Origin: a virus
IMG/VR virus record: IMGVR_UViG_3300048033_001554
Location: 20,354-84,353 of that record
DNA length: 64,000 nt
Reading direction: 5' to 3' (one strand)
A program made the position numbers and the translations under genes. Position 1 is the first letter of the stretch, and the number at the start of each line of letters is the position of its first letter. Under the pieces are notes generated by a model. That model was not told the DNA's origin. It saw only the letters and a program-made list of their open reading frames with translations, and made no database searches. Of the stretch, positions 5,106-52,013 are shown in pieces.

Positions 5106-5119
5106 CTATTTTCGTTTCC

Positions 5120-6793: not shown

Positions 6794-6815
6794 GTCACAC
6801 CTTGTGCTTTTCTAA

Positions 6816-6823: not shown

Positions 6824-6830
6824 AACTATT

Positions 6831-8498: not shown

Positions 8499-8499
8499 C

Positions 8500-9414: not shown

Positions 9415-9445
9415 GATAGCTCCTGTTTAATTTATAGTTATTTAT

Positions 9446-13978: not shown

Positions 13979-13981
13979 TTC

Positions 13982-19178: not shown

Positions 19179-19435
19179 TAGCCTTGTCTAATCTTACGTG
19201 AAAAATCTGATTCAATAATAGGCAAATAAGTCCTATCAATTAGGAATATTTCTTTTTTGTTTTCGTTATCATAAAGTTCTTGGTCGTAAACTTTCCATTC
19301 TTTCCACTCGTTAGGAATAATACGCTTAATAATAATTTTACGACCTTGTTCAGTACGCAAAATAACCCGATCTTCTTTACGAAGGTAAATTGTTTGGAAA
19401 GATTCTGGCGCTAGCTTAATAATATCTACAGCCAT
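19178..19435 (-). CDS. Small protein between gp53 and the hub gene
   Basis: 85 residues; overlaps the hub gene by one base and lies 3 bases downstream of gp53, so it is translated within the baseplate operon. Beta-rich and highly charged (RKEDRVILRTEQGRKIIIKR, then NEWKEWKVYD). I do not recognise it. Its strict placement suggests a baseplate or hub-assembly role. Confidence 0.65.
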   Translation of the reverse strand: MAVDIIKLAPESFQTIYLRKEDRVILRTEQGRKIIIKRIIPNEWKEWKVYDQELYDNENKKEIFLIDRTYLPIIESDFSRKIRQG

Positions 19436-19438
19436 TTG

Positions 19439-19810
19439 TTATACCTCTCTATAATAATAAATGATATTATCACCATTATCTTCTCGAGTCCAGTCAACAA
19501 CATCTTCACCAACTCTTCCTGATTCTTCTGAATACTTTTCAATTAAGTAGTCGTTAAACTCTGCTTCTGCCAAAGGCCATTGGTGATATGGATCTAAAAT
19601 ATTATTAGACAAATACACAAGCCAAACATAATCAACAGAACCGTAATAATAATTTGCAATATCTTCAGCACGTTCACCTTCTTTAATAGTAAAAGGCAAA
19701 TACAAAGCTGGATTAGAAACTACCAATTGAGTAAAATTAGTACGGCGAGTAATATCTTTTACTTTATAGCCTTCGTAATCTACTGTTGGAAAATTTTCGA
19801 AATATTTCAT
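19439..19810 (-). CDS. 53: Baseplate wedge subunit gp53
   Basis: 123 residues, shorter than T4 gp53 (about 196). The gp53 core is clear: DITRRTNFTQLV near residue 19, then a LysM-like segment PFTIKEGERAEDIANYYYGS and VDYVWLVYLSNNILDPYHQW, with the W-P-L-A-x-x-x-F ending (WPLAEAEFNDYL). gp53 closes the wedge around the gp6 ring. ATG overlaps the gp48-like stop by one base. Confidence 0.88.
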   Translation of the reverse strand: MKYFENFPTVDYEGYKVKDITRRTNFTQLVVSNPALYLPFTIKEGERAEDIANYYYGSVDYVWLVYLSNNILDPYHQWPLAEAEFNDYLIEKYSEESGRVGEDVVDWTREDNGDNIIYYYREV

Positions 19811-31368: not shown

Positions 31369-32009
31369 ATTTCTACTTGCTCCAAATCTGCTTCTGCTCT
31401 TACAATGGCCTGCAGCCGCAGAATATCTGCTGCAACATCATGTTTAGCGTCGTGTGCGTTAAAATTATAATTCCATTTTTCAATGTCTGATACAGGAATG
31501 AATCCGTTGTTGCCGCCAGGAACATTAAAATCAAATTTAGCATCAATAAATGTTCGTGTATCTCTTACCAAGTAATACTTTAAGAAAGAACTAAGTAGAT
31601 CAGCCTTATTAGCATTATGTGCAAGACGATCTAATACTACCGGATCAAACGAATTTGATCTTGACCACCAGTAATCAATCTTACCAGCAGCACGTAGATA
31701 GTTAATTAAACCTTCAATAAATTGCGGTGCTTTCATATCATCACTTGAAGGCTTTAAGTTTCTTCTAAGTTCAGCTGGTTTATCCAACCACCATTGCAAA
31801 TCACTTTGGCTATACTTACATCCATGGTTTTCCATTTGATCTTTAATATCAAACTTAGCATGCTCCATACCAAGAACTAACTCTTTAAAAGAGTATGGGT
31901 TATCACAAAACCTATCCCACTCAAAAGTCGTGTATGCGACATCAATAGCTGGAATTTCACGAGAGCATCCGCCAATAGTTTCAAAATCAAGAATAAAATG
32001 TGTGCTCAT
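31365..32009 (-). CDS. dexA: Exonuclease A, DexA-like (DEDD 3'-5')
   Basis: 214 residues (T4 DexA: 227). DEDD catalytic set: DFET at residues 8-11, SNSFDPVVLDRL for the second Asp, and HDAKHDVAADILRL for the His-Asp. The DLQWWLDKP and LRRNLKPS segments match DexA. Degrades DNA from 3' ends, in T4 dispensable and thought to aid host DNA breakdown. A perfect consensus promoter lies just upstream (32063-32091) inside the methylase gene. Confidence 0.85.
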   Translation of the reverse strand: MSTHFILDFETIGGCSREIPAIDVAYTTFEWDRFCDNPYSFKELVLGMEHAKFDIKDQMENHGCKYSQSDLQWWLDKPAELRRNLKPSSDDMKAPQFIEGLINYLRAAGKIDYWWSRSNSFDPVVLDRLAHNANKADLLSSFLKYYLVRDTRTFIDAKFDFNVPGGNNGFIPVSDIEKWNYNFNAHDAKHDVAADILRLQAIVRAEADLEQVEI

Positions 32010-33211
32010 AAAAATGCCTCTAATGTATTACCGCGTTCAATATAATCTGCCTTCTGTCTATGATTATACTGCAAAATGTAGTCTGTGTCAACCATTACTA
32101 ACTCATTATTCAAATATTTTTTAACTTCAGTTGCCATGTCAGTAGCAGTTTGAACTGGTACGTTTTGACAAATATGGTTAGCAACCTTAGGACCAGCATT
32201 TACGAGTTCAAAATCTTCGGGCAAACCCATGATTGTCATAGCTTCTCGATAGTTAATAAAGCGATCTTCATCTGGATGGGCAAGCATAAGAGGATAGTGG
32301 CCAACAAAAGCACCAATGCGATCCTTAGGAATGGTTACACCACGGCGCATAATACTTTTACCTGATTCGAGTTTTGCATGTTTGTATTTGCATTTCTCTA
32401 CTTCACGATCAAAACCATTTTCAGCCATCCAATCAGCAACTTGCAAATAGCTATATCCTTGTTGTTCAATGTAACTGTAAACACAAGCGCCACGAGCTGA
32501 TGTTGGTTCAATCAAAGCAGCATGTTCTTTATGAGTACGACCACCGTGAATATGTTCTAAGATGAAACGGTAATAAGGATTGTCTGTTGGTTTCTTTTTA
32601 TGGTTAATTACTTCAGTTTGGAAGTTAGATGTAACACCTCGGATTACCTCTTCGATGGGCGTATGAGGCTTGTTATAGTAGTTTAAGAGAGGAGTTTTAG
32701 TACCTTTCCAGAAAAAGTAGAATGATCTCTCGCGTACCTGTGGTGCACCGTGCAATAGAGATTTAGTTCTATATACAGACATTGTATATCCATTTTCTCT
32801 ACCAATTTCTTTTAACTGGGTACGAACTTTAGCTCCAATTTTACCAGCAAACCCCGGTGCATTCTCTCCCCAAAACACTTTTGGTTTATACTCGCCAAGG
32901 ATATATTTAGCGGTTTCTACCATCCACTTGTTGTTTTCATTGTCATCACCATATCCCATAGACATAGTTGATAGACCGGCACATGGGCAAACTGAAGATA
33001 CAACATCAGCTCTTTCATTGGTTGGTGGAGCCATTCCTTTATCTAAAACATAGTAGGGAATTTCGTTATTATAGTAATTTAGGATGTGACTATCATTAGA
33101 AGCAAAAGCCTCATATGACATAAAATGCAATGGCTTAGTGCCAAAAGCATTTTGTGATCCAATTGTTTCACCGCCAATTAGTGGTACAATGGCTGCATGT
33201 GTTATGCTCAT
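32006..33211 (-). CDS. C5-cytosine DNA methyltransferase (Dcm family)
   Basis: 401 residues. Motif IV VCPCAGLS carries the catalytic Cys of PC..(L)S; motif VI is WGENAPGF; motif VIII is QVRERSFYF; the region near the end (NHICQNVPVQTATDMA) matches motif X (GN.VP...). Motif I is atypical (VPLIGGETIGSQNAF rather than F.G.GG), as in the phage Dcm-like proteins I remember. Transfers a methyl group from SAM to C5 of cytosine. Puzzling beside gp42, which would already occupy C5 with hydroxymethyl; it might act before modification, on host DNA, or have a changed role. ATGA overlaps on both sides. Confidence 0.85.
   Translation of the reverse strand: MSITHAAIVPLIGGETIGSQNAFGTKPLHFMSYEAFASNDSHILNYYNNEIPYYVLDKGMAPPTNERADVVSSVCPCAGLSTMSMGYGDDNENNKWMVETAKYILGEYKPKVFWGENAPGFAGKIGAKVRTQLKEIGRENGYTMSVYRTKSLLHGAPQVRERSFYFFWKGTKTPLLNYYNKPHTPIEEVIRGVTSNFQTEVINHKKKPTDNPYYRFILEHIHGGRTHKEHAALIEPTSARGACVYSYIEQQGYSYLQVADWMAENGFDREVEKCKYKHAKLESGKSIMRRGVTIPKDRIGAFVGHYPLMLAHPDEDRFINYREAMTIMGLPEDFELVNAGPKVANHICQNVPVQTATDMATEVKKYLNNELVMVDTDYILQYNHRQKADYIERGNTLEAFL
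32063..32091 (-). promoter_or_regulatory. Consensus sigma70 promoter inside the methylase gene, for dexA
   Basis: TTGACA (32086-32091), 17 bases, TATAAT (32063-32068), reading leftward to the dexA start at 32009; it lies in the last 86 bases of the methylase gene. Confidence 0.7.
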
Positions 33212-33675
33212 AATTTACCTTTCAAGCTCGCGTCAGCAACACGCTTTCTCAAATCAGTTGATGAGAAAGAATGTTTTCGTTTATTGTAATGGATCGGACA
33301 AAGACCTTTTGCGGTGTGCTCAGTATCACGGTATTCTTCACCAACAATACGGACATGAGGCTGAATAGTTAGCACCATATCAACAATTTCTTGTTCTGTT
33401 GTAAAAGGAATTACCTCGTCAACAAATCGACAAGCCGATAGTTGAACATATCTTTCAAAGGGAGTTTGAACGGGTTTTTGTTTGCTGTCTGGACGGTCTA
33501 CTGTTGGATCTACTAGCAGACCGCAAATGAGGTAGTCACAAAGGCTTTTAGCTTCTTGTAACATTACAATATGACCTGCATGTAGCAAATCAAAAGTAGA
33601 ACAAGTAAAACCAATTTTAACTTCATCAGCTGGTTTACCCAAACGCTGAGCAATCTCAGAGATATTCGTAAACAT
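33208..33675 (-). CDS. Cytidylyltransferase (TagD/CCT-like, HxGH family)
   Basis: 155 residues. IGFTCSTFDLLHAGHIVML holds the nucleotide-binding HAGH (residues 32-35) and the second signature is SSTDLRKR near the C-terminus. TagD-type enzymes make CDP-glycerol; relatives make CDP-choline or CDP-ethanolamine. It overlaps by 20 bases a gene encoding a HAD phosphatase and a choline/aminoglycoside-type kinase, so the pair may build a CDP-activated group. Substrate cannot be read from sequence. Confidence 0.8.
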   Translation of the reverse strand: MFTNISEIAQRLGKPADEVKIGFTCSTFDLLHAGHIVMLQEAKSLCDYLICGLLVDPTVDRPDSKQKPVQTPFERYVQLSACRFVDEVIPFTTEQEIVDMVLTIQPHVRIVGEEYRDTEHTAKGLCPIHYNKRKHSFSSTDLRKRVADASLKGKL

Positions 33676-34693
33676 TATTCATACACTCCATAATAAAATC
33701 TTTATTAGGGTGGTATTTGTACACCCTAGTAATTTCAGCACCAACCAACGCTGACAGCATACCTTTATTTATATCATTTGCTAGCGCCATATATTTAAAA
33801 GACTTAACAACTTTATCCATATCATATTTGTTAATCAATAGACTTGCAATAAATTTAGCAGCATCCAACTCAGTGCAACCAAACACACCACAAATAGGAT
33901 CAATCAGCGTAACGTTGCAATCTTTAAAGAGCATATTTTTAATGCCAAAATCACCGTGAGAAAATGTTCTTTTTAAATCAAACTTATAAAGCTTAAAGGC
34001 ATTATCACGGAAAATCTCATGGCCACCGTGATTATATGCGTTCTCAGCATGCTGTTCAATTCGATGAATATAAGATACGTAGCTTAATTCGTCTTTTACT
34101 TTAAGTGATTTAAGCTTATCCAATTGAGTTTGAATAATGCCAAGCGCCATGTGAATATTATTTTCAAAGTAGTTTTCATCGTTATCAATATAATCCATTG
34201 TAATCGTTTCGCCAACAACACGGTGTACTACTGGAACTTTAACGTTAACAATTTCAGCCTGTTCAAACCATTCACGAGTAGCATGAGCTGCTGAATCTTG
34301 CTTATGGACTACTTTACCATCTGTATAAATTTCAGTACCTGACAAACCACCTTCAAGCTCGCGAATATCTACCTCAAGGAAGTCCTCAGGCATAATACCT
34401 TTATCGTCGATGTAATAAGCTGCCAAAGGTTTATCAAACGAAAGCATATTATATTTTACATTATACTTTTTAAGCCAAGCTACAATGCTTGACTCATATT
34501 TTTCTCGAGCTTCTTCACGAGTATTACATGAAATAGAACCACGAGCTGTGAAGATATCAATCTGCCAACCTTGATCGTATAAGTGATTAAGTTTATTAAT
34601 CAAAACTTCATTTGGTTGAGCAGAATCGAACTTACGACCTTGATGGAACGCTAGTGTGTCGTCAAAGTCAACAACGATTCGTTTATGATACAT
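33656..34693 (-). CDS. HAD phosphatase - small-molecule kinase fusion
   Basis: 345 residues. Residues 1-110 are a HAD phosphatase: RIVVDFDDTLAF (Asp9 nucleophile, Asp11), IFTARG (motif II Thr), KPLAAYYIDDKGI (motif IV). Residues 120-345 have the aminoglycoside/choline kinase catalytic loop: HGDFGIKN (His246, Asp248, Asn253) and the metal-binding LIDP (Asp265). Opposed activities in one chain, next to a cytidylyltransferase, suggest salvage or synthesis of a phospho-alcohol (choline, ethanolamine, glycerol or a sugar) for surface glycans or DNA. One-base overlap with the Agt-like gene. Confidence 0.75.
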   Translation of the reverse strand: MYHKRIVVDFDDTLAFHQGRKFDSAQPNEVLINKLNHLYDQGWQIDIFTARGSISCNTREEAREKYESSIVAWLKKYNVKYNMLSFDKPLAAYYIDDKGIMPEDFLEVDIRELEGGLSGTEIYTDGKVVHKQDSAAHATREWFEQAEIVNVKVPVVHRVVGETITMDYIDNDENYFENNIHMALGIIQTQLDKLKSLKVKDELSYVSYIHRIEQHAENAYNHGGHEIFRDNAFKLYKFDLKRTFSHGDFGIKNMLFKDCNVTLIDPICGVFGCTELDAAKFIASLLINKYDMDKVVKSFKYMALANDINKGMLSALVGAEITRVYKYHPNKDFIMECMNNVYEYL

Positions 34694-36117
34694 TAGAAAA
34701 ATCCTTCAAGAGTAGATCCAACTTGCTTAGGCTCTTTAATTTCATTTTGTCTTCCATCAACAAGAGTATAAGCCTTTTCAAGTAGTACACTGCCGGGAGT
34801 TGAAACAATAATTTCCCCGCGTTCACGACGTTCTCGAGCACTTGGAAAGTAACTCGAAATCCTATCTATAAAATCTACTTTATCATGTCTTTTACCTTTT
34901 GTCAACACAAAATCTAAGAATTTTGGACCAAGGACTTCAATATCATTAAACTTGTAAATTAGTTCACGGCATGCTTCAGTACGAGCTTTCCATTCCTTAG
35001 GATTATTAGCAATACGGTTCAATTCAGCAGCAAGTTCTTCTTCCTTAGTAGCTTCTGAAATAAGTGGACCATAATATTCTCCCCACTTTTTACCTTCAGG
35101 AGATACAGCGTTTTCAGCAAAGTGACGGCTAATAACAGGTAGAGACAATAGGAATGATTCAATTACTGTATATTCCATGCGGTGGCCATACTCTTTTGGA
35201 TCGCCAAGACGGTAACCACACCATGCAGCCATAGAAGAACCAAGTTCACCCATGCCAAAATCATACTTATAACCATCGTACGCAGTAATTGTAGTACCGG
35301 TCTTTTCTTTCTCTTTACCTGGGAGGTAATGTTCGCCAGCTGAGTTTGTTCCAATGAACCTAATTTTTGGCTGATAAGATTTATGGTATGGAGCTGGATC
35401 TGTTGCAAGAGTTTTAGAATCAGGATCTCCAATAGAAGAAATAGAACGTTCACAACCCATCAAGGTAAGATCCCATTCATTTTTCAAAAATGGTTCAATA
35501 CGGCAAATCATTCCTGGATCTTTAAGTGTTGACATACGACCCATGTACATAAAGTGTTTACGACGTTCTTCAAGGTCAGCACGATATTGATCGTAGTCTC
35601 CTGTACGAACCCAAATAGGATTCTCAAGTAATCTACCTTCAAGGCCAAGATCAGTTGCTAGATAACACTCTTGTGAATACCCTTCAAATGACTGGGTAAT
35701 ACCAATGTCTGCCAAAGCAAACAACTCACCAGCACCGGTTTGGCGATTAATAGTATTTTTAGTAATAGCATGATCGTGTACTACAATAATTGGATCATTA
35801 ATCTCTTCTACAAATTCACGGAATCGATCAATGTATTTCCCATTCTTGCGAGTTGGAAATGAATGCACAATAGCAATATCGCAAGTATTAACCGCATCAA
35901 CCACCGGTTGTACATCTTTTACTTCTTGGTTGCTTTCAACACGAAGCACTTCACCGTGCCATGAAACGTTTTGTGCTCGACCAAATTTTTGTTTGTTATC
36001 AAAATCAATAACCATTGTTTCATGGCCTTGAGATACTAGCCAATCTTCGAAGATATTAGCGCCTTTAGTAACACCACAACCTTCAATGCCTTTTCCAAAG
36101 ATAAAAGCAACCTTCAT
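34693..36117 (-). CDS. agt: DNA alpha-glucosyltransferase, T4 Agt-like
   Basis: 474 residues (T4 Agt: about 400). The N-terminus VAFIFGKGIEGCGVTKGANI, then DWLVSQGHETMVIDF, parallels T4 Agt ICIFMARGLEGCGVTKFS...DWFIKNGHEVTLV, and IIVVHDHAITKNTINRQTGA plus ADIGITQS parallels its YQHDHSVLSLRRNLG...ADVIFSHS. The middle (FMYMGRMSTLKDP) and YTVIESFLLSLPVISRHF are GT-B donor-site features. It likely transfers a hexose from UDP to hydroxymethylcytosine in phage DNA. Strong ribosome site (AAGGAT). The gp42 hydroxymethylase nearby supports the assignment; the sugar and linkage are inferred from T4. Confidence 0.75.
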   Translation of the reverse strand: MKVAFIFGKGIEGCGVTKGANIFEDWLVSQGHETMVIDFDNKQKFGRAQNVSWHGEVLRVESNQEVKDVQPVVDAVNTCDIAIVHSFPTRKNGKYIDRFREFVEEINDPIIVVHDHAITKNTINRQTGAGELFALADIGITQSFEGYSQECYLATDLGLEGRLLENPIWVRTGDYDQYRADLEERRKHFMYMGRMSTLKDPGMICRIEPFLKNEWDLTLMGCERSISSIGDPDSKTLATDPAPYHKSYQPKIRFIGTNSAGEHYLPGKEKEKTGTTITAYDGYKYDFGMGELGSSMAAWCGYRLGDPKEYGHRMEYTVIESFLLSLPVISRHFAENAVSPEGKKWGEYYGPLISEATKEEELAAELNRIANNPKEWKARTEACRELIYKFNDIEVLGPKFLDFVLTKGKRHDKVDFIDRISSYFPSARERRERGEIIVSTPGSVLLEKAYTLVDGRQNEIKEPKQVGSTLEGFF

Positions 36118-36121
36118 AATA

Positions 36122-36451
36122 TTATCCTTCTACAAATTGTTCCCATTTGTTTGGCATACCATCGAACAATTCAGCATCCTCGAGAGGTTCTTTTTGTTCA
36201 TTGATGTTTGGCCAAACCTGAGAGTATTTAGTATTTCTTTCCATCCATATAATCTTATCTGGTTCTGGCAAATCTACGTCAGCAACAATAGCACTAACAG
36301 GACATTCAGGAACGCAAACTCCACAGTCAATACATTCATCAGGATTAATTACTAAAGTATCTTCACCTTCATAAAAACAATCAACTGGACATACAGCAAC
36401 GCAATCGGTGTGTTTACACTTAACACAATTATCCGTTACCAGATAAGTCAT
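36122..36451 (-). CDS. fdxA: 7Fe ferredoxin ([3Fe-4S][4Fe-4S], FdxA type)
   Basis: 109 residues from the ATG at 36451 with GGAGGT upstream. Cys at 9, 12, 17, 21, 25, 40, 43, 46 and 50 reproduce the spacing of Azotobacter-type ferredoxin I shifted by one, including [20 protein letters not shown] and [16 protein letters not shown]. The acidic C-terminal tail ([12 protein letters not shown]) also fits. Low-potential electron carrier. It could serve the cytochrome P450 at 49.7 kb, the flavin halogenase-like protein or the radical-SAM enzymes of this phage; that pairing is inference. Confidence 0.9.
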
Positions 36452-36452
36452 A

Positions 36453-37019
36453 TTATACCTCCAAAAGAGTGATTTGTACACCACTTTCTTTAAACATTAA
36501 AGAACTTTGTTCTTCCCAAATTTCTTGCCAATTACCTTTGTCTGTTTTAGTACTAGGAATTACTACACGCTTAATGCCAGCTTGGATAATGCATTTAGTA
36601 CAAGACGGACAAATAGGTAATCCATAGACATACAATGTAGCATCTTTAACGGCAACACCATTATATAGAGCGTTCATTAATGCATTCATTTCAGCATGGA
36701 TGATACGAGGATATTTTTCCTCCCTACTATTTAGCCTTTCTGGAGTATCCGAAATACCACGAGGAAAGCCATTGTAGCCGGTGGCTAGAATACGTCGTTC
36801 ATCATTAACAATTACAGCACCAATTTTACTTGATGGATCTTTACTCCAACTTGCAATAAGCTCAGCCTGCTCCATGAAACGTCGATCCCATTTAGTAATG
36901 TTATCTTCTACTTCTTTATTCATACGTCGCATGTAGTCTTCGTAAAATTCGTATTCGCCCATGTACTCTTCTTTCTCTTGAAGTTCCATTACATATTGTC
37001 CAATTTTACTCATAATCAT
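36453..37019 (-). CDS. cd: dCMP deaminase
   Basis: 188 residues (T4 Cd: 193). Zinc sites HAEMNAL and [10 protein letters not shown], with [20 protein letters not shown] and [11 protein letters not shown] matching the deoxycytidylate deaminase family. Converts dCMP to dUMP for dTMP synthesis, competing with gp42 for dCMP. Overlaps the gp42 stop (ATGA). Confidence 0.93.
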
Positions 37020-41694: not shown

Positions 41695-42786
41695 TCATTT
41701 TATTTCAAGTTTTTTAGTATGTTTTAAGCTATTTTTCCATCTGCCATTTCTTTTGTTACATGTCTGTGCACAAACTCTGAATGGAACACTACTCCAAGAT
41801 TCTTCTATATGCTTAAACAAACCAGCGTTAAGAATATCTGTGATATCGTGTTTAGTTACATTATTGAATTCTCGGTCTAGTTTTAGCTCAGTGTAAAGCT
41901 TTTTAGAAAGCAATCCTTCTGTATTCTTTAAGACATCACTTTGGACTTCTTGCCCTATCCAACAACAAGGCCACAATTTCTTTTCAGCGGACAAGTAAAC
42001 CATAGCATCTTGATCTGCTTGACATTGAATATCAGCTGTAATATCATAGCTTTCGTCATATGTTTTGGGATATTGCGGTTGAAAATCCCTAACGGTGTCA
42101 TTTCGCCTGTGCTTATAGTTATCTTCGATCGCTGACGCAGGTTCTAAAGAGTATTCTGGTTTGTGCTTCTTATCATATACTATAAGATCCTTGGTGCCCC
42201 ATCTCATAGACACCCTAGATTTAAATTGTTTAAATCCATATTGCTTCGCAAGTTCACGGCATTCTTGTTCTTGGTGCTCATTATGTTTAAAGATGGTCAT
42301 AGCCCAATTCGCCTCTCCACCTGCGTCTATGTAGGCTTTAGCATTTTTCATTACAACACTAAATAACGTATTTCTTCTGTATAAATGATGCGTATCTTCG
42401 AGACCATCTATACCAAATTCTACATTGACGTTATGTTGTTTACCTAACCAAGCCCAAAAATCTGTAGATAAAGCTCCACCATTTGTGTTAATTTTTATAC
42501 GCATACTACGATTTAATAAAACTTCAATTAATCCTTTTGGATTTGAATGTTTAACTATATCTCCAAAATTTCCATTTACTACTACAGTAAAAACATTAGA
42601 AAAATATTCGTGGTCAAGAACCTTTTCTAGCTCTTCTGTAGACCACTCATTTATTTCTAATCCTGGCATTGTTTTAAAAAAAGTATCATAAGTTCTTGGG
42701 CACTGAGGGCATCGAGCATTACATCCGCTAGTAGGCTCTAAGTGTATAGTTCTAATAAGCCTTTTGTATATTCCATAATCAACCAT
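41695..42786 (-). CDS. Radical-SAM protein with C-terminal Cys cluster
   Basis: 363 residues. HLEPTSGCNARCPQCPRTY carries the radical-SAM CxxxCxxC (Cys22, 26, 29). ADIQCQ, KLWPCCWIGQ and RVCAQTCNKRNG near the C-terminus supply Cys for an auxiliary (SPASM-like) cluster. Such proteins are common in marine T4-likes; their substrate is unknown to me, and peptide or tRNA targets are possible. Last gene of the accessory island on this strand before the small-gene region. Confidence 0.8.
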   Translation of the reverse strand: MVDYGIYKRLIRTIHLEPTSGCNARCPQCPRTYDTFFKTMPGLEINEWSTEELEKVLDHEYFSNVFTVVVNGNFGDIVKHSNPKGLIEVLLNRSMRIKINTNGGALSTDFWAWLGKQHNVNVEFGIDGLEDTHHLYRRNTLFSVVMKNAKAYIDAGGEANWAMTIFKHNEHQEQECRELAKQYGFKQFKSRVSMRWGTKDLIVYDKKHKPEYSLEPASAIEDNYKHRRNDTVRDFQPQYPKTYDESYDITADIQCQADQDAMVYLSAEKKLWPCCWIGQEVQSDVLKNTEGLLSKKLYTELKLDREFNNVTKHDITDILNAGLFKHIEESWSSVPFRVCAQTCNKRNGRWKNSLKHTKKLEIK

Positions 42787-43726: not shown

Positions 43727-43742
43727 TTTATTGGAGGAAGAC

Positions 43743-44414
43743 ATGGACAATTTTTTAAAATCAATAGATAGAGAAGAATTCAGAAATTATATAGATAATT
43801 CTGTATTCAAAGCTCAAGCGTGCCAACGAAATTGGGACCTATCTAAATTTGTTAATGAAAAGGATTTAGAGTCTATAATTGGTGCTGGAATGAATTGCCC
43901 ATCAAAACAAAATCAAGATTTTTATAATCTTCACGTGATAACTAATAGAGACATCATACAAAAATTATATGAGAGCTCAATTATACCAAATGGAAGAAGA
44001 AAAAATCCTCAATTATTAGCTAATGCAGTTATTCTATTTGAAAGCAAAGAAGTAGAAACTCCTAGATCTGACGAGCAAAAAAAGCTTGCTCTTGCCAAGA
44101 AGGGAATAATATCTCTTACTCAAAAAGATTTAGATGATTGCGAAAAAATAGTGTATAGAGATACTAATCAAAGTTTAGGAATAGCCGCTGGCTTTATTAA
44201 TATTACCTCAGCTATGCTTGGATATGAAACTGGATTTTGCGCATGTTTTGATGATGAAACTGTAAAATCTTTACTTGATATTCGTGGAAAACCATTGCTA
44301 GCAATAGGAATAGGAATAAAGGATGCAAGTAAAGATAGAACAGAAGATCATATAACTGGCGAACTGATATCTAAATATAAAAAAGGTCCTATAGGACTTA
44401 GTTTGCACAAATAA
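43743..44414 (+). CDS. Nitroreductase-family FMN oxidoreductase
   Basis: 223 residues from the ATG at 43743 (GGAGGA upstream). Family features: AQACQRNWDL then DLESIIGAGMNCPSKQNQDF (FMN phosphate/ring contacts, R...N.PS..N), and SLGIAAGFINITSAMLGYET plus GFCACF...KPLLAIGIG (dimer helix and last strand). Reduces nitro groups, quinones or flavins with NAD(P)H. On the plus strand under its own late promoter, ending 4 bases before the convergent operon end. It could supply reduced flavin to the halogenase-like protein (inference). Confidence 0.75.
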   Translation: MDNFLKSIDREEFRNYIDNSVFKAQACQRNWDLSKFVNEKDLESIIGAGMNCPSKQNQDFYNLHVITNRDIIQKLYESSIIPNGRRKNPQLLANAVILFESKEVETPRSDEQKKLALAKKGIISLTQKDLDDCEKIVYRDTNQSLGIAAGFINITSAMLGYETGFCACFDDETVKSLLDIRGKPLLAIGIGIKDASKDRTEDHITGELISKYKKGPIGLSLHK

Positions 44415-44417
44415 GAT

Positions 44418-44696
44418 CTACTTCTTATTTCTTTGAGCATCCTCTGCTTCGATTACTCCTCTAAGTTCAGCGATGAGTTCTTCTGCAAGCTCAACTTGTC
44501 TTAAAGTAATTCTATGAGGTGTATTAGGAAATAAAAATGGCACAAACGCGTGGATGTATCCAGTGATTGCATTGGCCAAACCAAACGTGCTTAGCTTTAT
44601 TGCAAACCACATATGGGTAAAGTATCCGCTGCGAACTTCCTTCAAATGCTCAGTATTAATCAAATAGCCATATCGGCCTAAGTTGCCAAATTTCAT
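44418..44696 (-). CDS. DUF6356-like small membrane protein (copy 2)
   Basis: 92 residues from the ATG at 44696 (GAGG 7 bases upstream). NTEHLKEVRSGYFTHMWFAI and YIHAFVPFLFPNT match the H..E....Y..H...A and HA..PFLF..T pattern of DUF6356. One or two membrane-associated helices. Paralogue of the next gene upstream, 1 base away. Confidence 0.7.
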   Translation of the reverse strand: MKFGNLGRYGYLINTEHLKEVRSGYFTHMWFAIKLSTFGLANAITGYIHAFVPFLFPNTPHRITLRQVELAEELIAELRGVIEAEDAQRNKK

Positions 44697-44697
44697 G

Positions 44698-44910
44698 TTA
44701 AACCTCGTGGTGCTCAAATGTTTCGTGTACTAAGCTAGCTAATTTCTTTGCAGCATTCATAGATGCTTTTTCTAAAGCGAACGGAAAGATAGCATGAATT
44801 GAACTCGTAACAAAAACCGCTAATGACCAAATGACCATGTTAAGTCCAATTTTAATGTGACCAAAATAACCAGTGTTTGCTTTATTTAAATGTGCTACTA
44901 ATGTTGTCAT
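44698..44910 (-). CDS. DUF6356-like small membrane protein (copy 1)
   Basis: 70 residues: AHLNKANTGYFGHIKIGLNM, a hydrophobic helix (VIWSLAVFVTSSIHAIFPFA) and a charged helix. The same pattern as its neighbour, so a tandem duplication. At the end of the coupled metabolic operon; role unknown. Confidence 0.7.
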   Translation of the reverse strand: MTTLVAHLNKANTGYFGHIKIGLNMVIWSLAVFVTSSIHAIFPFALEKASMNAAKKLASLVHETFEHHEV

Positions 44911-44922: not shown

Positions 44923-45600
44923 TTAGTATCCAAAAATTCCTGGAATTAACGTCCTATGGTTTACGTTAACTTTCATGTAGTTAAACCCGTCAGTTAATCC
45001 GTGTTCTATATATAAATCGTAATTAGAGTATCTTTTTATAGATTCTTTAAGGTACTCAGTATCAATCGCAGTCCACATTACTTTGTCTTTACTTGTAATA
45101 TAGGAAAGCTTTTTGTTTTGTATTTCTTCTATATTTGATATATCTATTGCATACTTGCTTTGAAGTATATCGAATATTTTTTGATTAGAAGGATCTATGT
45201 AGGTGAAACATACTTGTTTAGACACGTGACACAATTGCGCTATGCAATATAACATTTCATTTAACTCGTGGTGAGTAAATACACTATTAGCAAATGCAAT
45301 ATCAAATTGGTTTAATTTTGGAAAGTTTTCATTTTTGTTGCCGTGAGGATTGTATGCTTCGTGGTATCTGTTCCAATAAACTACGCCTGCATTTGGATGA
45401 TCTTCAAGCAATTCATTTAATGCGCTTTTACTTATATCTAAGCAAGTATAGTTTTCTTCTAAGATTTTACCTTTTGAATACCACAAAAGGTTTCCTCTGT
45501 TTCCACCAAAGTCAAGAATTTTTTTATCTTCGTAACCATCAACAAATTGATTGAAGATATTAAAGGCGTCAATTCTTTTGAATACAGAATATTTGTTCAT
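44923..45600 (-). CDS. Class I SAM-dependent methyltransferase
   Basis: 225 residues from the ATG at 45600, which overlaps the stop of the upstream membrane-protein gene (TAATG). Motif I ILDFGGNRGNLL, acidic motif II YTCLDISKSALN, motif IV FDIAFANSVFTHHE. Substrate unknown. The coupling suggests a tailoring methyltransferase of the P450-halogenase operon. Confidence 0.8.
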   Translation of the reverse strand: MNKYSVFKRIDAFNIFNQFVDGYEDKKILDFGGNRGNLLWYSKGKILEENYTCLDISKSALNELLEDHPNAGVVYWNRYHEAYNPHGNKNENFPKLNQFDIAFANSVFTHHELNEMLYCIAQLCHVSKQVCFTYIDPSNQKIFDILQSKYAIDISNIEEIQNKKLSYITSKDKVMWTAIDTEYLKESIKRYSNYDLYIEHGLTDGFNYMKVNVNHRTLIPGIFGY

Positions 45601-45845
45601 TAGTATATAGTGGAATTGCCCACTTTGCTCCAATCAATTTCAACTAACCAGTGTGGCTTTTTTCTTTCAATAATCAACAGTAATAAGTATACATCACTTA
45701 TAATCGGAAATGCATAGAATACAAATCTTTCTACAATATTACATCTATTTATTGCCCCACCAATAAGACCGAGTGGATTTTGCATTCTTTCTTTTTCTAA
45801 AATAATAGAACAAACTATAAAACTAACTAATATCAAATACGTCAT
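45600..45845 (-). CDS. Small membrane protein in the metabolic operon
   Basis: 81 residues, two hydrophobic segments (TYLILVSFIVCSIIL and FVFYAFPIISDVYLLLLII) and an aromatic, charged tail (KKPHWLVEIDW). Coupled at both ends: ATGA with the radical-SAM gene, TAATG with the methyltransferase. Not recognised; could anchor the pathway at the membrane. Confidence 0.65.
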   Translation of the reverse strand: MTYLILVSFIVCSIILEKERMQNPLGLIGGAINRCNIVERFVFYAFPIISDVYLLLLIIERKKPHWLVEIDWSKVGNSTIY

Positions 45846-47365
45846 TCGTCTAGCCCTAAAAACTTATCTACTTTATCATAGTAACTTCTTTTCATATAAT
45901 CATGAGCTCTTTCTTTAATAGCAGGATCTATGAACAGTTCCGTAAACGTCATTTTGCGCAATGTTTCAAAATCAAAACCTAAACATTGATAGAACATCAA
46001 AAAGAATGTAGCAACTTTAATGTCGTCAATAAAATTCTCTTGAAGGTTTTTAACGTACTCAACAGCTTCAACACTCGACCAATCGTCTCTTATCCATCTG
46101 TTTGTTTTTTCGTCTATATAAAAACCATAGTCTTTGTAATTTTTTGAAAGCTCAGATGCGGTGCCAAGCTCTAATGGACTAAAAGAAAATGAATCAAATA
46201 AATGCTTGTGCGCAAACAAATCTTTTGACCATTCGTTTATAGTTTCTTCGTTATCTCCTGGAAGACCAGCAATAAAACTACCATATACACTTAAAGAATC
46301 ATTAAACGCCTCTTTTGATTTTTCTATTGTCTCAAAAATCTTTTCTTTGGGGCAGCTTTTGCCAATTGCTTTTGCTGCTTCATAGTTTAGTGACTCAACT
46401 CCTAGAAACCATGCGCATACATTAATCTTTTTAAGTAGCGGCAATTGCTCTGGGAATCTAGCAACTAAATCAATTCTTATGAATGCTGCAAATTCTAGCT
46501 TTTCTGGCAAAGCTAATTCTTCAATAGCATCGGCAATAGCTTGCAGTTTTACTGTTTGTTCATTGAATGTATCATCTATAATTACATATTTAGTTGTACC
46601 ATACAAATCGTAATTTTGCTTGAGCTCATGTTTGATACGCTCTTTTTCTCGTAAAAAAGAATCATCGCCTTTGCGTTTACCAATTAAAGGGTATGCACAA
46701 AACTTACATTTAAAAATGCATCCACGACCAAACTCGATTCCCATCGCATCCTCTGGATTCCAAAAATCCTCGGGTACATAGTTTATAAATGAATTTCTAA
46801 AATCAAATTGATTTCCTTTTGGATCAAAATCAATTACTTTGCATTTACTGCCATACGCAATATTGTAATTTAATTTTGTTCCGTTTTTTTCATGATTAGT
46901 GATATGCTCAGCCATTGCTTCACCCATACCAACTACATAGTAATCAATGCATTCTTCAACTATTGGTTTACGTTGAGTATCCATCATACCGCCGTATACC
47001 GTTTTTGCACCTTTTGAACGAATATAATCTGTCATAGATTTAATATCTTCATCTTGACTTGGCCAATGCCATAGGATATTCATTCTTGCCCCATCACGGG
47101 TATGTCTTTTAGTATAAACATCGTCGCCTCTTCTCATAAAAAGAGTAGAACTAAAACCAACCCATAATGTGTTTGGCCCCATTAATTTATCAAGCAGTTC
47201 GTTAATTTTGCCTTTTTTAATCCAATGAGTAAAGTTATTTAAAACAAACACACTATATCCAAGGTTGCGCATATGAGATGCGATTTTGTAACCGCCTACT
47301 GCACGCGCAACATTAAAGACAGGATCGCCTCCTTCAGTCATTATAATTATGTCGTATGTTTTCAT
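45842..47365 (-). CDS. B12-binding radical-SAM protein
   Basis: 507 residues. N-terminal ~150 residues look like a cobalamin-binding domain (IIIMTEGGDPVFNVARAVGG, ASHMRNLGYSVFVLNNF, TLWVGFSSTLF, KTVYGGMMDT). The radical-SAM cluster motif is GRGCIFKCKFC (Cys216, 220, 223), followed by Elp3-type core strands (KYVIIDDTFNE; KINVCAWFLGVESLNYEA; SVYGSFIAGLPGDNEETI). Such enzymes methylate or rearrange unactivated carbons. No typical DxHxxGG-type loop is obvious, so B12 binding may be degenerate. Operon partner of the P450 and halogenase-like genes. Confidence 0.8.
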   Translation of the reverse strand: MKTYDIIIMTEGGDPVFNVARAVGGYKIASHMRNLGYSVFVLNNFTHWIKKGKINELLDKLMGPNTLWVGFSSTLFMRRGDDVYTKRHTRDGARMNILWHWPSQDEDIKSMTDYIRSKGAKTVYGGMMDTQRKPIVEECIDYYVVGMGEAMAEHITNHEKNGTKLNYNIAYGSKCKVIDFDPKGNQFDFRNSFINYVPEDFWNPEDAMGIEFGRGCIFKCKFCAYPLIGKRKGDDSFLREKERIKHELKQNYDLYGTTKYVIIDDTFNEQTVKLQAIADAIEELALPEKLEFAAFIRIDLVARFPEQLPLLKKINVCAWFLGVESLNYEAAKAIGKSCPKEKIFETIEKSKEAFNDSLSVYGSFIAGLPGDNEETINEWSKDLFAHKHLFDSFSFSPLELGTASELSKNYKDYGFYIDEKTNRWIRDDWSSVEAVEYVKNLQENFIDDIKVATFFLMFYQCLGFDFETLRKMTFTELFIDPAIKERAHDYMKRSYYDKVDKFLGLDE

Positions 47366-47366
47366 A

Positions 47367-48131
47367 TTAACCTTTTCTAGGATTGTTGAAATCTACTGGC
47401 GTTCCGTCTCTTCCGGTATAAAAGAAGCATCCATTTTTTTCTATTACTTTGTCTTTAGTATTGTACCAATCTTCGTACACACATGAATCACCACTCACCC
47501 ACAAAATATTCCTATCCATAATCTTTACCCAACAATTGAAAATATTACCAACGATGGTTGAGTTTGGTGGAGTAAAAGATTTTACTTTATCCACTTCTTC
47601 TTTAGTATTAAATACGTGCATAATTGCATTTACACCAACTTCAGTCATTCCCCATATGCAAATCACCTTAGCGCCTCTTTCAATAAAAGCATCAATGATA
47701 TCATATGTGACTGGCTCGGATCCAACCATAAATGTTTTGCCACTCAAATTAAGATCCTTGAAGCCTTTAGTCATCATTACGCCTTTAGCTTGTTTAGGAG
47801 TCAAGTGTGTATGAGTATATTTATCAACTGCTCTTACATACTGGTAAGGGCTGAAAGGCTCAATCGTTAGTTTAGCACCCGCAATCAAAGCTGGTATAGA
47901 CTGTGCAAATAAACCACCGGCTCTTTCAAGGCTTAAACACGTATATACTGAACTGTCTTTAGTTATTTCTTGTACCTTTATAGCATTTAAAGCATCAGCT
48001 TTTATTTTTGCGGGAGGTTGATACACTTCTTTTGGGATACCAGAAGAACCAGAGGTTTTAATTGTGATACCTTTATCTATTACATCAAGTAAATATTTGT
48101 GCTGGCTATCGTTCAAAGTAGTTGAACCCAA
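47367..48131 (-). CDS. Truncated ANL-type adenylating enzyme
   Basis: 254 residues, half the size of normal ANL enzymes. The N-terminal-domain signatures are present: P-loop TSGSSGIPKE (26-35), A5 WGMTEVG (160-166), A7 SGD (213-215) and A8 FYTGRDG (237-243). The protein ends just after the hinge, so the C-terminal subdomain with the A10 catalytic Lys is absent; closest in style to MenE-like ligases. No ATG occurs before about residue 119, so TTG starts at 48131 (or 48116) are needed; the first overlaps the halogenase-like gene by 26 bases. It may bind or adenylate an acyl or aryl acid only with a partner. Confidence 0.75.
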   Translation of the reverse strand: MGSTTLNDSQHKYLLDVIDKGITIKTSGSSGIPKEVYQPPAKIKADALNAIKVQEITKDSSVYTCLSLERAGGLFAQSIPALIAGAKLTIEPFSPYQYVRAVDKYTHTHLTPKQAKGVMMTKGFKDLNLSGKTFMVGSEPVTYDIIDAFIERGAKVICIWGMTEVGVNAIMHVFNTKEEVDKVKSFTPPNSTIVGNIFNCWVKIMDRNILWVSGDSCVYEDWYNTKDKVIEKNGCFFYTGRDGTPVDFNNPRKG

Positions 48132-49236
48132 ACTCTCGGTCTACGTAACGTAAGACATGATGGCCCATAAAGCGTTCAGTGATTGTCTTAAACATTTCAT
48201 CGTTTTGGTCTGCAACATATCTTTTAAGTACATTAGTTTCTTCTAGGTTATTAGAAGCTCTATGTGTTGCCCACATCCAAAAATCGTTTTCGTAAATAGA
48301 ACCACCGTGGTAGATTAAATTGATTAAATCTTCAACTGCTCGATAGTTTAATATGCAAAGTTCATTTGCTTCATCTTGGGTAATCTCACCACGAATATAT
48401 TGGGAATGTATTTGAGCATTCTTAACTGTCATATACAAAGAGTTGGCACTCATTGGTTCAAAGAATACGGCACGATTACCACTCTTTAATATTTTTCCAT
48501 CTATTGTCTTCTTACAATAATACGGTTTTAAACTAAATGTTCGGAAGTCTTTAATGTCTTTTTCGGTAGCATTTGTAATACGAATAAGTTCTTGTTCGGC
48601 TTCTAGTCTTGTAGCAAATGCGTCATTATATAAAAGCCCGTGAGACGTGCGATGCTGTAATGGAATCACAAACATCCACCCATACTTATGAGCAACGTGG
48701 CGAGTAAAGCCAAAGTCAGACGGTTCAGGATCATCATAAACAAGAGCAGAATTTAGAATTAAATCACATTCTTTGTAATCGGTAAAATCAGTTGGTCTAC
48801 CACGGCAATCAATTACGTAGTCATATTCTTCTAAGTCTTCGTATTCTACGTTTGCATTTAATAGTTTATAATTTGGATATAACTTCTTTAATCTTTCCAA
48901 CCCCATTTTTGCAAAGTCACGAGCATCAAAATGAACAGCATGATAACCTGATTGGAATGGAAATATAATATCATCTTTACGCCAATCAATATAGTGTGTA
49001 CCATATTTTGTAGTACTATTTAATTCTTTAGATTCAGTAGCAAATATGAAATCAAATGCTTGACCAATCGCAAAGGTAACTTCTGATGTCGTGCTTTCAC
49101 CAACACCAAGGATTGGAATGTTTGGATCAAAAATATGAGTAACTTCGCAATCAATACCACGATTTTTAAAATCTCTTAGAATACATCCGGTAGTTAGTAT
49201 GCCAGCGCTTCCTGCACCTAATATTGCAATTTTCAT
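48106..49236 (-). CDS. Flavin-dependent halogenase-like protein (Trp halogenase family)
   Basis: 376 residues. FAD fold GAGSAG (7-12); the family motif GVGESTT (44-50); K77 in TTKYGTHYIDW lies where tryptophan halogenases have their catalytic Lys79 (K.GI.F.NW); GWMFVIP (186-192) is the WxWxIP motif with Phe for the second Trp; EPMSANSLYM (260-269) matches EPLE.TSI. Family members are usually above 500 residues, so this is a compact version. Marine viral halogenases of this family are known (cyanophage VirX1). The missing second Trp leaves open that it is an oxidase rather than a halogenase. ATGA overlap with the GNAT gene. Confidence 0.75.
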   Translation of the reverse strand: MKIAILGAGSAGILTTGCILRDFKNRGIDCEVTHIFDPNIPILGVGESTTSEVTFAIGQAFDFIFATESKELNSTTKYGTHYIDWRKDDIIFPFQSGYHAVHFDARDFAKMGLERLKKLYPNYKLLNANVEYEDLEEYDYVIDCRGRPTDFTDYKECDLILNSALVYDDPEPSDFGFTRHVAHKYGWMFVIPLQHRTSHGLLYNDAFATRLEAEQELIRITNATEKDIKDFRTFSLKPYYCKKTIDGKILKSGNRAVFFEPMSANSLYMTVKNAQIHSQYIRGEITQDEANELCILNYRAVEDLINLIYHGGSIYENDFWMWATHRASNNLEETNVLKRYVADQNDEMFKTITERFMGHHVLRYVDREFGFNYFER

Positions 49237-49748
49237 TCTTCACCTCTTGCTTCTAAATACTTTTTATTATTTAATTTCCATATGTTTTGATTAACACCAA
49301 ACACTTCTTCGTTACTTACATGCTCAACAAGCCCATTCTTTTCAAGTATATAATATAGCTTATTTAATCTTAACATACTTCCGCTTGCATCATTATCAGT
49401 ATTTGTTGTGATATAGATTGGTTCTCCATTAGCCAGATCAATAACTATTGGAAGGTGATAATAAAACATCCAACAATTCATGTGATTGCGGCTTAACCCG
49501 CCAGGCCTAGAATATAATTGAGCACCTCGATATAAAGCTCTATACCCGTCTTTAAATCCATGAAGACCGCTTATCCCAACAATTTTATCGTCTACATATG
49601 TGGCAAACCAAATACCACGATTTTCTATAGTTTCCTCAAACCTCATAGCTTCAAGTGAGTTGTTATTTTTAAACCCAAGTTTATCACACTCGTTAATAAA
49701 TTCTATCAACGCAGGTGAAGTGCCAAATAGAAGACTAGTTTCAATCAT
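49233..49748 (-). CDS. GNAT-like acetyltransferase
   Basis: 171 residues. GIWFATYVDDKIVGISGLHG fits GNAT strands 2-4 and IYITTNTDNDASGSMLRLNK with YYILEKNGLVEH fits strand 5 and helix 4. The CoA-binding R/Q-x-x-G-x-G/A is not clear (GGLSRNHMN instead), so activity is uncertain. Coupled by ATGA to both P450 and halogenase-like genes. Confidence 0.6.
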   Translation of the reverse strand: MIETSLLFGTSPALIEFINECDKLGFKNNNSLEAMRFEETIENRGIWFATYVDDKIVGISGLHGFKDGYRALYRGAQLYSRPGGLSRNHMNCWMFYYHLPIVIDLANGEPIYITTNTDNDASGSMLRLNKLYYILEKNGLVEHVSNEEVFGVNQNIWKLNNKKYLEARGEE

Positions 49749-50992
49749 GAGAATTTAAACTCTAAGTCCTTATAAACTGTCGTACTGCCGAACATTGCTG
49801 GTAATAATTCTGGTTCTTTTGTCATTTCGAAGGTATCAAATCGATCTAGCATTTCGTTAATAATGATTTCAAGAAAATGCTTTACGAGAAAATCGCCAGT
49901 ACAATGGTGAGGACCATAAGCAAGAGTAACTGGTAACGGTTCATCATCACGCTCTAATTTAAATTCGTGTGGATCTTTAAAATACTTAGGATCTCTATTA
50001 GCACCATACGTATATAATAGAACACGTCCGTTTTGATCAAACTTATATCCGTGGTAATCTATTGTTTCAGTAATGTCACGAATGCCACCTTTAAGAGGTG
50101 CAAGCCTCATAGACTCTCGTGCAAATTTAGGAACTAAAGATCTATCAGCTTTTACTCTCTTCACAATTTCCGGATACTTACAAAAATTCATACAAAGGTT
50201 TTGATACATACTTAATGCAAAGGTTGGAATAACTACTGTCCATAGTGATTGGATAAACATATATCCCATTAGCTTTGGGTTGTCGTTATATTCTGTTTGT
50301 TTATCATTTAAGTTATACGCCATGTTTACCATGGTGTCTTTATCTCGACCTTCAAGCATATAGTACTCTAATGACTCACCTACGATCCGAGCAAACATAT
50401 GGTAGAATTCTGTAGTTTCAGCTACTGGCTTATCATAGTCAAAGTCAGGATTAAAATTAGAGAATACGTTCCCAGGTCTCATCCATTCATGAAAGCCATC
50501 TTTAACATAATCTTCGGTAACATCTAATTCTGAGAATGGAAACTCTATTGTTTGAATTTGAGTATCAGTTACAATACGACCAATGTAATCATATGATTTA
50601 AATGATTTGCCTTTTGGTATTCTATCTAAATGATTTGTTAAGTTGTTTTTAAAGATTTCGGTAAAATCACCTGCCCGGCGTTTGATCCAATCTAAACTAT
50701 GCTTTTTTGCTAAATGATGGTGAGGACCTTCACGCAATGTTAATGCGTAACCGGCACGCCAAATTCCACCGAGCGGCGTAGGATCAAAAGGTGCAGGAGA
50801 TGTTTTTGCAAGGCTAAATGTTTCATTCATCTTGGAAGCTTCTTTGAGCTTATCCATAGAAAAAATAATCCAATGCCTATAAACAGGGTGCCAGAAAAAA
50901 CCACGTTCTTCATTTTCAAATAAGAACTGAGTGTGCTCTTCCATTTTATACAAGAAATCTGGATTTACAATATCAAAATCAATTTTACGCAT
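49745..50992 (-). CDS. Cytochrome P450
   Basis: 415 residues, normal bacterial P450 length. K-helix ExxR is E293-S-M-R296 (FARESMRLAP); the conserved ANRDP (331-335) and F...R (FKLERDD) follow; the heme loop LAYGPHHCTG places the axial Cys at 364, with the following helix (DFLVKHFLEIIINEML). Two oddities: the first Phe-Gly of FGxGxHxCxG is Leu-Ala, and the I-helix lacks the usual AGxDTT (here QSLWTVVIPTFALS), so the oxygen-activating acid-alcohol pair is missing. No membrane anchor. First gene of a coupled operon; a phage ferredoxin is at 36.1 kb. Confidence 0.92.
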   Translation of the reverse strand: MRKIDFDIVNPDFLYKMEEHTQFLFENEERGFFWHPVYRHWIIFSMDKLKEASKMNETFSLAKTSPAPFDPTPLGGIWRAGYALTLREGPHHHLAKKHSLDWIKRRAGDFTEIFKNNLTNHLDRIPKGKSFKSYDYIGRIVTDTQIQTIEFPFSELDVTEDYVKDGFHEWMRPGNVFSNFNPDFDYDKPVAETTEFYHMFARIVGESLEYYMLEGRDKDTMVNMAYNLNDKQTEYNDNPKLMGYMFIQSLWTVVIPTFALSMYQNLCMNFCKYPEIVKRVKADRSLVPKFARESMRLAPLKGGIRDITETIDYHGYKFDQNGRVLLYTYGANRDPKYFKDPHEFKLERDDEPLPVTLAYGPHHCTGDFLVKHFLEIIINEMLDRFDTFEMTKEPELLPAMFGSTTVYKDLEFKFS

Positions 50993-51011: not shown

Positions 51012-51314
51012 TTAAAGATCAGCGGTTTCCGGTGTAAATGTGATAGACCATCCTTCAGATCGCAACTGAGCTTTAACACCCTCAGAAACATCTGCCATCA
51101 TTATTTGGTATTCTTCAACTGCGGCATCATTCCATTCAGTTACAACTGTATGCGTATTGCCGTCACTGCTTATTACCGTACTCCTATTTCCGTTTTCTAG
51201 ACAAACATCTAAATAATATGTTACTTCTAACGGCAATAGAGATGATATGTATTGCAATGCTTCTCGAGCGGTGAGCTCTGTGCTTGGTGTGAAAACAACT
51301 TGTTGTGATATCAT
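51012..51314 (-). CDS. Hypothetical protein upstream of the P450 gene
   Basis: 100 residues, mixed alpha/beta: TAREALQYISSLLPLEVTYY, EYQIMMADVSEGVKAQLRSE, ending WSITFTPETADL. Reads like a small alpha/beta domain; no cofactor motif. 19 bases before the P450 start, so probably the same transcript. Function unknown. Confidence 0.6.
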   Translation of the reverse strand: MISQQVVFTPSTELTAREALQYISSLLPLEVTYYLDVCLENGNRSTVISSDGNTHTVVTEWNDAAVEEYQIMMADVSEGVKAQLRSEGWSITFTPETADL

Positions 51315-51338: not shown

Positions 51339-52013
51339 CTATTTATCTAGTTTTCCTATAATAGTAAACCTTTTAACGTCTTCTTCAAAGCGATGATCTA
51401 TTTCATCCGAATAAATTATATCAAACATTGGATGCATTTGGTCTTCAAATTCTTCTAAAGTATCTACAGTATTAATGTGATCTTTTAATCCATGCATATT
51501 ATTTGATTGAAAAATAAAAGTTGGGTTGTTTTTAAAATCATATTTTTTCCAGCCAGGCCAATGTTTCATAGGAGGCATATGTTCGCAAGAAGTGTTTATT
51601 ACTACATCACAATTATTAAAATGCCATAGCCTATTTAACCATACATCTGCTTCAAAAAATTCAGGCCTTTTTATCTCTTTGAATAGTTCATTTGCTAATT
51701 CTATAGCATATTTGTCCATATCCCAGCCATAAACTTTGCGAGCATCTCTACTAAGTAAAAGAGGAACAAGTATAGATCCAAACCAGCAACCCATTATTCC
51801 ATAAGTTTGATCTGGCTTTGTTAGCTCGTATTCGTCCATTAATTCAATTAAATGTTTTTTAGAATCACATTGATTTAAAGAAAACGAATCAACAAGTTCT
51901 TTAGATTTACCCCAAATGTTTTTGCGTGCATCAATTTCTATAATGCTTATAACTCTTCTAAAAAGCTTTCTAGAGTATTCATCGTTTAATAAAAACTCAC
52001 TATTAATCATCAA
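51339..52013 (-). CDS. Probable SAM-dependent methyltransferase
   Basis: 224 residues. TYGIMGCWFGSILVPLLLS resembles motif I (G.G.G-like turn), KVYGWDMDKYAIELAN holds the acidic residue binding ribose, and CDVVINTSCEHM resembles motif IV. The N-terminal 60 residues are helical. Overlaps the upstream glycosyltransferase-like gene by 11 bases. Substrate unknown. Confidence 0.65.
   Translation of the reverse strand: MMINSEFLLNDEYSRKLFRRVISIIEIDARKNIWGKSKELVDSFSLNQCDSKKHLIELMDEYELTKPDQTYGIMGCWFGSILVPLLLSRDARKVYGWDMDKYAIELANELFKEIKRPEFFEADVWLNRLWHFNNCDVVINTSCEHMPPMKHWPGWKKYDFKNNPTFIFQSNNMHGLKDHINTVDTLEEFEDQMHPMFDIIYSDEIDHRFEEDVKRFTIIGKLDK

Follow-up and report, generated by a model that had tools for sequence, protein, structure and literature searches.

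A conserved, mobile multienzyme cassette in T4-like phage genomes and the small-molecule pathway it may encode

Do phages carry biosynthetic pathways of their own, and what would be the chemical core of such a pathway where no core synthase is visible? The question is raised by a run of seven head-to-tail genes on the minus strand of a viral genome (positions 44923–50992). The window, the whole stretch of DNA that was analyzed, is 64,000 nucleotides long and corresponds to bases 20354–84353 of an 84,353-base, incomplete IMG/VR virus record (IMGVR_UViG_3300048033_001554). The phage has a T4-like backbone. Its gp6 baseplate protein has its nearest counterparts in Sinorhizobium phages phiN3/phiM12 and Caulobacter phage Cr30, and on that ground we guess at an alphaproteobacterial host.

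From the first gene, a cytochrome P450, to the last, a methyltransferase, the junctions between neighbors measure −4, −4, −26, +1, and −4 bases, followed by a TAATG overlap. Stops number 111–162 in each of the six complete reading frames across the 6 kb, so a run of open frames like this one is no accident of composition. The T4-like late promoter TATAAATA showed no enrichment, and none is located directly 5′ of the operon. Five of the seven genes pass curated Pfam cut-offs. They encode the P450 (49745–50992, 415 aa; PF00067, 43.4 bits), a short flavin-dependent halogenase-like protein (48106–49236, 376 aa; PF04820, Trp_halogenase, 98.8 bits; phrog_2928, 206.8 bits), a minimal ANL adenylating domain (47367–48131, 254 aa; PF00501, AMP-binding, 48.6 bits), a B12-type radical SAM enzyme (45842–47365, 507 aa; PF04055, Radical_SAM, 62.6 bits), and a SAM-dependent methyltransferase (44923–45600; PF08242, Methyltransf_12, 32.9 bits; 11-sequence alignment). 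Judging from relatives, the ATG at 45600 is the most likely start of the methyltransferase, in preference to the TTG at 45633. Between the P450 and the halogenase is a 171-aa GNAT-like acyltransferase (49233–49748) that belongs to no sequence family and is identified by its predicted fold. Between the radical SAM enzyme and the methyltransferase is a small membrane protein (45600–45845, 81 aa) that has no family match and is present in only some relatives. No PHROG or NCBIfam family exceeded its cut-off for the P450, GNAT, ANL, or methyltransferase. The seven coupled genes of the original prediction are thus real, with coordinates and overlaps confirmed, five of them by Pfam and the GNAT by predicted fold.

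Neighboring genes had also been linked to the cluster. A nitroreductase-family flavoprotein (43731–44414, plus strand; PF00881, 36.1 bits), a candidate flavin reductase that is not conserved with the cassette, and a second radical SAM gene (41695–42786; 33.6 bits) do pass Pfam cut-offs, but the second methyltransferase (51339–52013) is a weak match under the cut-off (E = 0.0014) and all three are located in variable flanks, outside the conserved unit. Two DUF6356 small membrane proteins follow the cassette on the minus strand (44698–44910, PF19883, 30.5 bits, kept beside most cassettes; 44418–44717, PF19883, 40.0 bits). The pair, at 44418–44910, is strongly kept downstream of most cassettes, at about 60–93% identity. 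Upstream of the P450 is a gene for a 100-aa protein (51012–51314, minus strand), which is present in part of the cassettes.

Scanning IMG/VR with the radical SAM protein yielded 19 contigs. Alignment scans with the P450, ANL, and GNAT returned the same set, apart from contigs ending inside the locus, for about 20 contigs, and the scan with the halogenase returned 15, every one a cassette contig. These scans used short peptide patterns and more distant cassettes may exist. The order P450–GNAT–(halogenase)–ANL–B12 radical SAM–...–methyltransferase, for which conservation across viral metagenomes had been proposed as a check, holds in 19 of 19 contigs as far as each reaches, with the halogenase present in 15. 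Several of the 19 are near-duplicates; distinct lineages number about 13 to 15, the window included.

Genes of the cassette are under purifying selection. Estimates of dN/dS (Nei–Gojobori, restricted to pairs with measurable dS) are about 0.07–0.15 for the P450, GNAT, halogenase, and ANL, reach up to 0.19 for the radical SAM enzyme, and are 0.2–0.25 for the methyltransferase. Correlations of between-gene distances across contigs are highest for the radical SAM enzyme and GNAT (r = 0.87) and lowest for the halogenase and methyltransferase (r = 0.26, with 200 of 2000 permutations as high), a pattern that fits a unit whose halogenase is exchanged or lost. Relative to the window, the main enzymes of record G012, which is a tailed phage too (DNA polymerase and tail genes are present), are 63–85% identical and its methyltransferase 46% identical, whereas the clamp loader is only 30% identical. 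Therefore, the cassette has moved as one block between divergent tailed phages. In record G002, backbone and cassette agree (clamp loader 84% identical). The cassette is a co-inherited multienzyme operon in phage genomes, and the proposal of one pathway on a phage gains strong support from four single-gene scans, gene order, purifying selection, and block transfer.

Parts of the cassette vary. The halogenase is missing in one lineage (contigs L015, L018, and L019) and in the truncated contig L020; because an entire cassette lineage is without it, halogenation is predicted to be optional. Eighteen contigs encode an aspartyl/asparaginyl-hydroxylase-like protein (in three of three tested, PF05118 exceeds its cut-off) as well as a second oxygenase-like domain, which is encoded separately or forms a C-terminal extension of the radical SAM enzyme. 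Neither gene was found in the window or in the remaining 20 kb of the record, which is incomplete and may hold a copy elsewhere; their absence looks like a clean deletion between the genes for the radical SAM enzyme and the membrane protein. In L015, L018, and L019, the lineage without the halogenase, the hydroxylase-like gene is within the cassette and on the opposite strand.

Beyond these contigs, no relative of the P450, GNAT, ANL, or radical SAM enzyme was found among 50,697 phage records (INPHARED). Alignments of the P450 and radical SAM enzyme likewise had no relative in GTDB genomes, in scans with short peptide patterns that would miss distant relatives. These two GTDB scans gave no candidate for a cellular donor of the cassette. 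Among the papers searched, none brings together phages, P450s, halogenases, and auxiliary metabolic genes.

Are the enzymes likely to be active? In the P450, the heme-thiolate Cys loop (YGPHHCTG) and the ExxR motif (E293, R296) are invariant in 14 of 14 aligned sequences. The I-helix motif [AG]Gx[DE]T is absent and reads VVIPT, in which the Thr is kept and the acid is replaced by Pro; in a PDB profile match to P450tol (E = 1.5e-22), VVIPT aligns to AGHDT. This motif is variable in some known P450s, and the substitution probably bears on mechanism more than on family membership. A 7Fe-type ferredoxin encoded in the window (36122–36484, minus strand; DUF3470, 49.2 bits, plus Fer4 matches) is a candidate redox partner. 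One other cassette record, G012, has a 67% identical copy along with a P450.

The halogenase has the FAD motif GxGxxG as GAGSAG, invariant in 11 sequences. At the position of the GWxWxIP motif, it reads GWMFVIP, with the second Trp replaced by Phe and the remainder kept in all sequences. Lys77 is invariant and aligns with Lys79 of PrnA and with the lysine of other phage halogenases (nine phage halogenases aligned). The position of PrnA Glu346 is occupied by Ser263 (EPMSANSLY), and the Ser is invariant across the cassette family; on this ground a tryptophan halogenase proper was rejected as the identity of the protein. Because the Glu is replaced by Ser, and is also absent from phenol halogenases (reviewed in PMC8407142), it is a reasonable guess that the target is electron-rich and phenol-like and not tryptophan.

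In the radical SAM enzyme, the cysteines of the CxxxCxxC motif (residues 216–223; C216, C220, and C223) are invariant in an 11-sequence alignment. Its best NCBIfam match, below cut-off, is the PhpK P-methyltransferase family, and its NCBIfam relatives are B12-type. The B12 domain PF02310 matches the relative in contig L012 with E = 2.9e-5 and 24.3 bits, under the cut-off of 32.1.

The ANL protein retains conserved P-loop A3 (TSGSSGxPK) and A5 (WGMTE) motifs, and its AF2 model (pLDDT 89.2) has MenE and other ANL enzymes as PDB fold matches. In 12 of 12 sequences, the protein ends at the A8 hinge. The A10 lysine normally sits in the C-terminal subdomain of ANL enzymes, and because this subdomain is missing together with the lysine, adenylation activity is uncertain. 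The description of the ANL as truncated is accurate in that the C-terminal subdomain is missing and the N-terminus is short; it does not extend to decay, as the form is conserved. More generally, the departures from canonical active sites in the P450, halogenase, and ANL are conserved across lineages under purifying selection and are thus best read, from alignments, as features of the families and not as decay. The AF2 model of the GNAT (pLDDT 85.5) predicts a GNAT fold for the 171-aa protein: the best 50 of 113 PDB fold matches (E ≤ 0.001) are all GNATs, with TM scores of about 0.5–0.6.

A second viral module bears on what the ANL and GNAT may do together. In record G009, a further short ANL gene adjoins a GNAT gene (ANL2 and GNAT2), and comparisons of profiles relate them to the cassette proteins (E = 3.5e-13 for the ANLs and 9e-11 for the GNATs). 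Scanning with ANL2 yielded 34 contigs (L101–L134; for example, L109:4001–7132), and GNAT2 comes after it wherever the contig reaches that far. In seven of the 34, a gene of 498–506 aa is between the two, and three of three tested are full-length halogenases (PF04820, 240.8–260.9 bits). The module thus has remote homologs of the cassette ANL, GNAT, and halogenase, adjacent and head-to-tail, with the same three functions at about 25% identity. It differs in that the order is reversed, ANL2 keeps the C-terminal part, and no P450 or B12 radical SAM gene is internal to it. Among isolated phages, GNAT2 had no match and ANL2 a single weak one. The candidate acyl-CoA loop of the cassette GNAT, RPGGLS, is not shared by GNAT2, and the model has low pLDDT at residues 84–88. 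Identity as a FeeM-type N-acyl amino acid synthase was considered and set aside: homologs of GNAT2 matched at E = 0.03–0.08, below cut-off, the window GNAT had no match, and a PDB profile search gave no support.

Recurrence of the pair argues that the ANL and GNAT, with or without the halogenase, are a functional unit, and it suggests that acid activation and acyl transfer are the chemical core of the cassette. We consider this core likely because the pair recurs as a stand-alone viral module, whether or not a halogenase is in between. The original prediction saw no core synthase and proposed searching for a carrier protein or precursor peptide. It was correct insofar as no carrier protein (PF00550) was found in any of 15 cassette records and the overlapping genes leave no space for a precursor; the part that needs revision is that the ANL–GNAT pair is itself a likely core.

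On balance, we lean toward the cassette being a mobile, phage-specific unit for producing a small modified metabolite while the phage infects its host, with the ANL and GNAT as the core and the other enzymes for tailoring. The ANL would activate an acid, and the GNAT would form an amide or ester by linking that acid, through an amine or hydroxyl group, to a building block from the host (an aromatic amino acid or acyl chain, for instance). The halogenase, the P450, and, in relatives only, the aspartyl-hydroxylase-like oxygenases would then halogenate and hydroxylate the product, the B12 radical SAM enzyme would C-methylate it, and the methyltransferase would O- or N-methylate it. Electrons for the P450 could be supplied by the phage ferredoxin (36122–36484) or by a ferredoxin of the host. 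We infer that the product would be a free small molecule.

The same enzymes could instead act on a macromolecule such as a phage DNA base, a surface or tail-fiber glycan, or a protein side chain, to which the ANL and GNAT attach an acyl or aminoacyl group that the others decorate. Both in the window and in several relatives, the cassette is bordered by glycosyltransferase-like and sugar-type genes, along with radical SAM/SPASM genes; the window also has genes for a C5-cytosine methylase and a relative of the T4 DNA alpha-glucosyltransferase (AGT); and the fold matches of the GNAT include sugar-pathway GNATs, PseH for one. However, the flanking genes differ between lineages while the cassette is constant, and the AGT-like gene was not found in 14 other cassette records, which are fragments, so that its absence is weak evidence. 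We regard a macromolecular target as rather unlikely, yet as the strongest of the alternatives. Less probable is that the cassette makes no new product and acts on a metabolite of the host or environment (for instance a signal, antibiotic, or defense compound), altering it or breaking it down. P450s, oxygenases, and GNATs also serve in detoxification, and the active sites of the halogenase and P450 are noncanonical. But acid activation, acyl transfer, a B12 radical SAM enzyme, and methylation are together better suited to assembly than to degradation, and a one-step detoxification does not need five co-conserved enzymes.

A pathway in which the enzymes act on a ribosomal peptide (RiPP) is improbable. 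Radical SAM/SPASM genes are in the flanks of several records and the 100-aa gene upstream of the P450 has a conserved C-terminus, but this gene is absent beside half of the lineages, the genes from the P450 to the methyltransferase overlap or nearly so and leave no space for a precursor, and the ANL would have no explanation if the substrate were a peptide. As the precursor itself, the 100-aa gene was rejected, since it is not universal among cassettes. Least credible of all is that the genes are separate auxiliary genes or decayed insertions together by chance, an outcome that the original prediction named among those that would refute it. The halogenase and two hydroxylase-like genes do come and go between lineages, but four independent queries led to the same contigs, where order is fixed, selection is purifying, and transfer was in a block.

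Single metabolic genes are known from phages, as are, in rare cases, clusters for bacteriocins, and components of the cassette have precedents. Halogenases are present in 20 of 153 cyanophages (PMC10452541). VirX1 of cyanophage Syn10 (PDB 6QGM) and cyanophage "tryptophan halogenase" genes resemble the cassette protein in being phage PF04820 members that keep the catalytic lysine, and, aligned over 94% of its length, the window protein shows about 32% identity to short cyanophage halogenases. For VirX1, use of a glutamate has been reported (PMC8407142), whereas the cassette halogenase has Ser. In four annotated isolates, the neighbors of the halogenase are genes for structural proteins, photosynthesis, or carbon metabolism, in some cases with a dioxygenase or another halogenase close by, and, unlike in the cassette, no annotated P450, GNAT, ANL, or radical SAM gene adjoins it. 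According to the account of Dragos et al. 2021 given in PMC10452541, phage-borne biosynthetic clusters are rare, mostly in temperate phages, and linked to bacteriocins; the cassette is likewise a biosynthetic cluster on a phage, but relative to the clusters described there it is in a T4-like backbone and without a bacterial counterpart in the genomes searched. In 153 cyanophage genomes, antiSMASH predicted no cluster (PMC10452541). Virus-encoded cytochrome P450s occur in Mycobacterium phage Adler and giant viruses, as summarized in PMC9405906; compared with the P450s in that summary, the one in the cassette sits among several enzymes and in a record that also encodes a ferredoxin. According to PMC9405906, no redox partner of a P450 was known from a viral genome before the flavodoxin described there. 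MenE and other short ANL enzymes (PDB 3ipl, 4gs5) share the ANL fold, P-loop, and A5 motif with the cassette protein, which differs in stopping at the A8 hinge, with the C-terminal subdomain and A10 lysine missing. Phage halogenases, phage P450s, and phage-borne clusters are thus each known, and their union in one mobile cassette of T4-like phages was not found in INPHARED (searched for the P450, GNAT, ANL, and radical SAM enzyme), in GTDB (searched for the P450 and radical SAM enzyme), or in the papers searched.

A bolder and distinctly tentative reading, drawn from gene content, is that marine T4-like phages have a natural-product pathway of their own, with a carrier-free ANL and GNAT and tailoring by P450, halogenase, B12 radical SAM enzyme, and oxygenases, that was not taken intact from a known bacterium and is handed on even where the phages are unrelated. 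Its product, set free by infected cells, would be an acyl-amide bearing halogen or hydroxyl groups, with a role as signal, weapon, or agent of host control. If true, viruses themselves produce specialized metabolites in the sea. The conserved mobile pathway would comprise five to nine genes and was not found in the isolated phages and bacterial genomes searched. The cassette also gives phage halogenases a concrete context and offers a two-enzyme core that is open to testing.

Other features of the cassette records are of separate note. At 32006–36117 of the window, genes for a C5-cytosine DNA methylase, a cytidylyltransferase, a HAD-like protein, and a T4 AGT-like glycosyltransferase are in a row, possibly a DNA base glycosylation system; a link between DNA hypermodification and the cassette was rejected, the AGT-like gene not being common to the other cassette records, which are fragments. 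Two lineages (records G001, G002, and G010) have a KAS I-like ketosynthase 0.4–0.7 kb downstream of the DUF6356 genes, an observation that we count in favor of the small-metabolite reading. Its coordinates as a beta-ketoacyl-ACP synthase I-like gene are L002:14541–15764 and L004:14439–15647, where the active-site Cys region is present and no carrier protein is nearby. In record G009 (contigs L091 and L092), radical SAM/SPASM-like, PP-loop, and glycosyltransferase-like genes form a long series that resembles a large biosynthetic region. In the first 20 kb of the record that includes the window (L026, record bases 1–20000), two genes (1709–6844 and 7275–17093) encode a 1711-aa protein with collagen-like GxQG repeats and a 3272-aa structural-looking protein.
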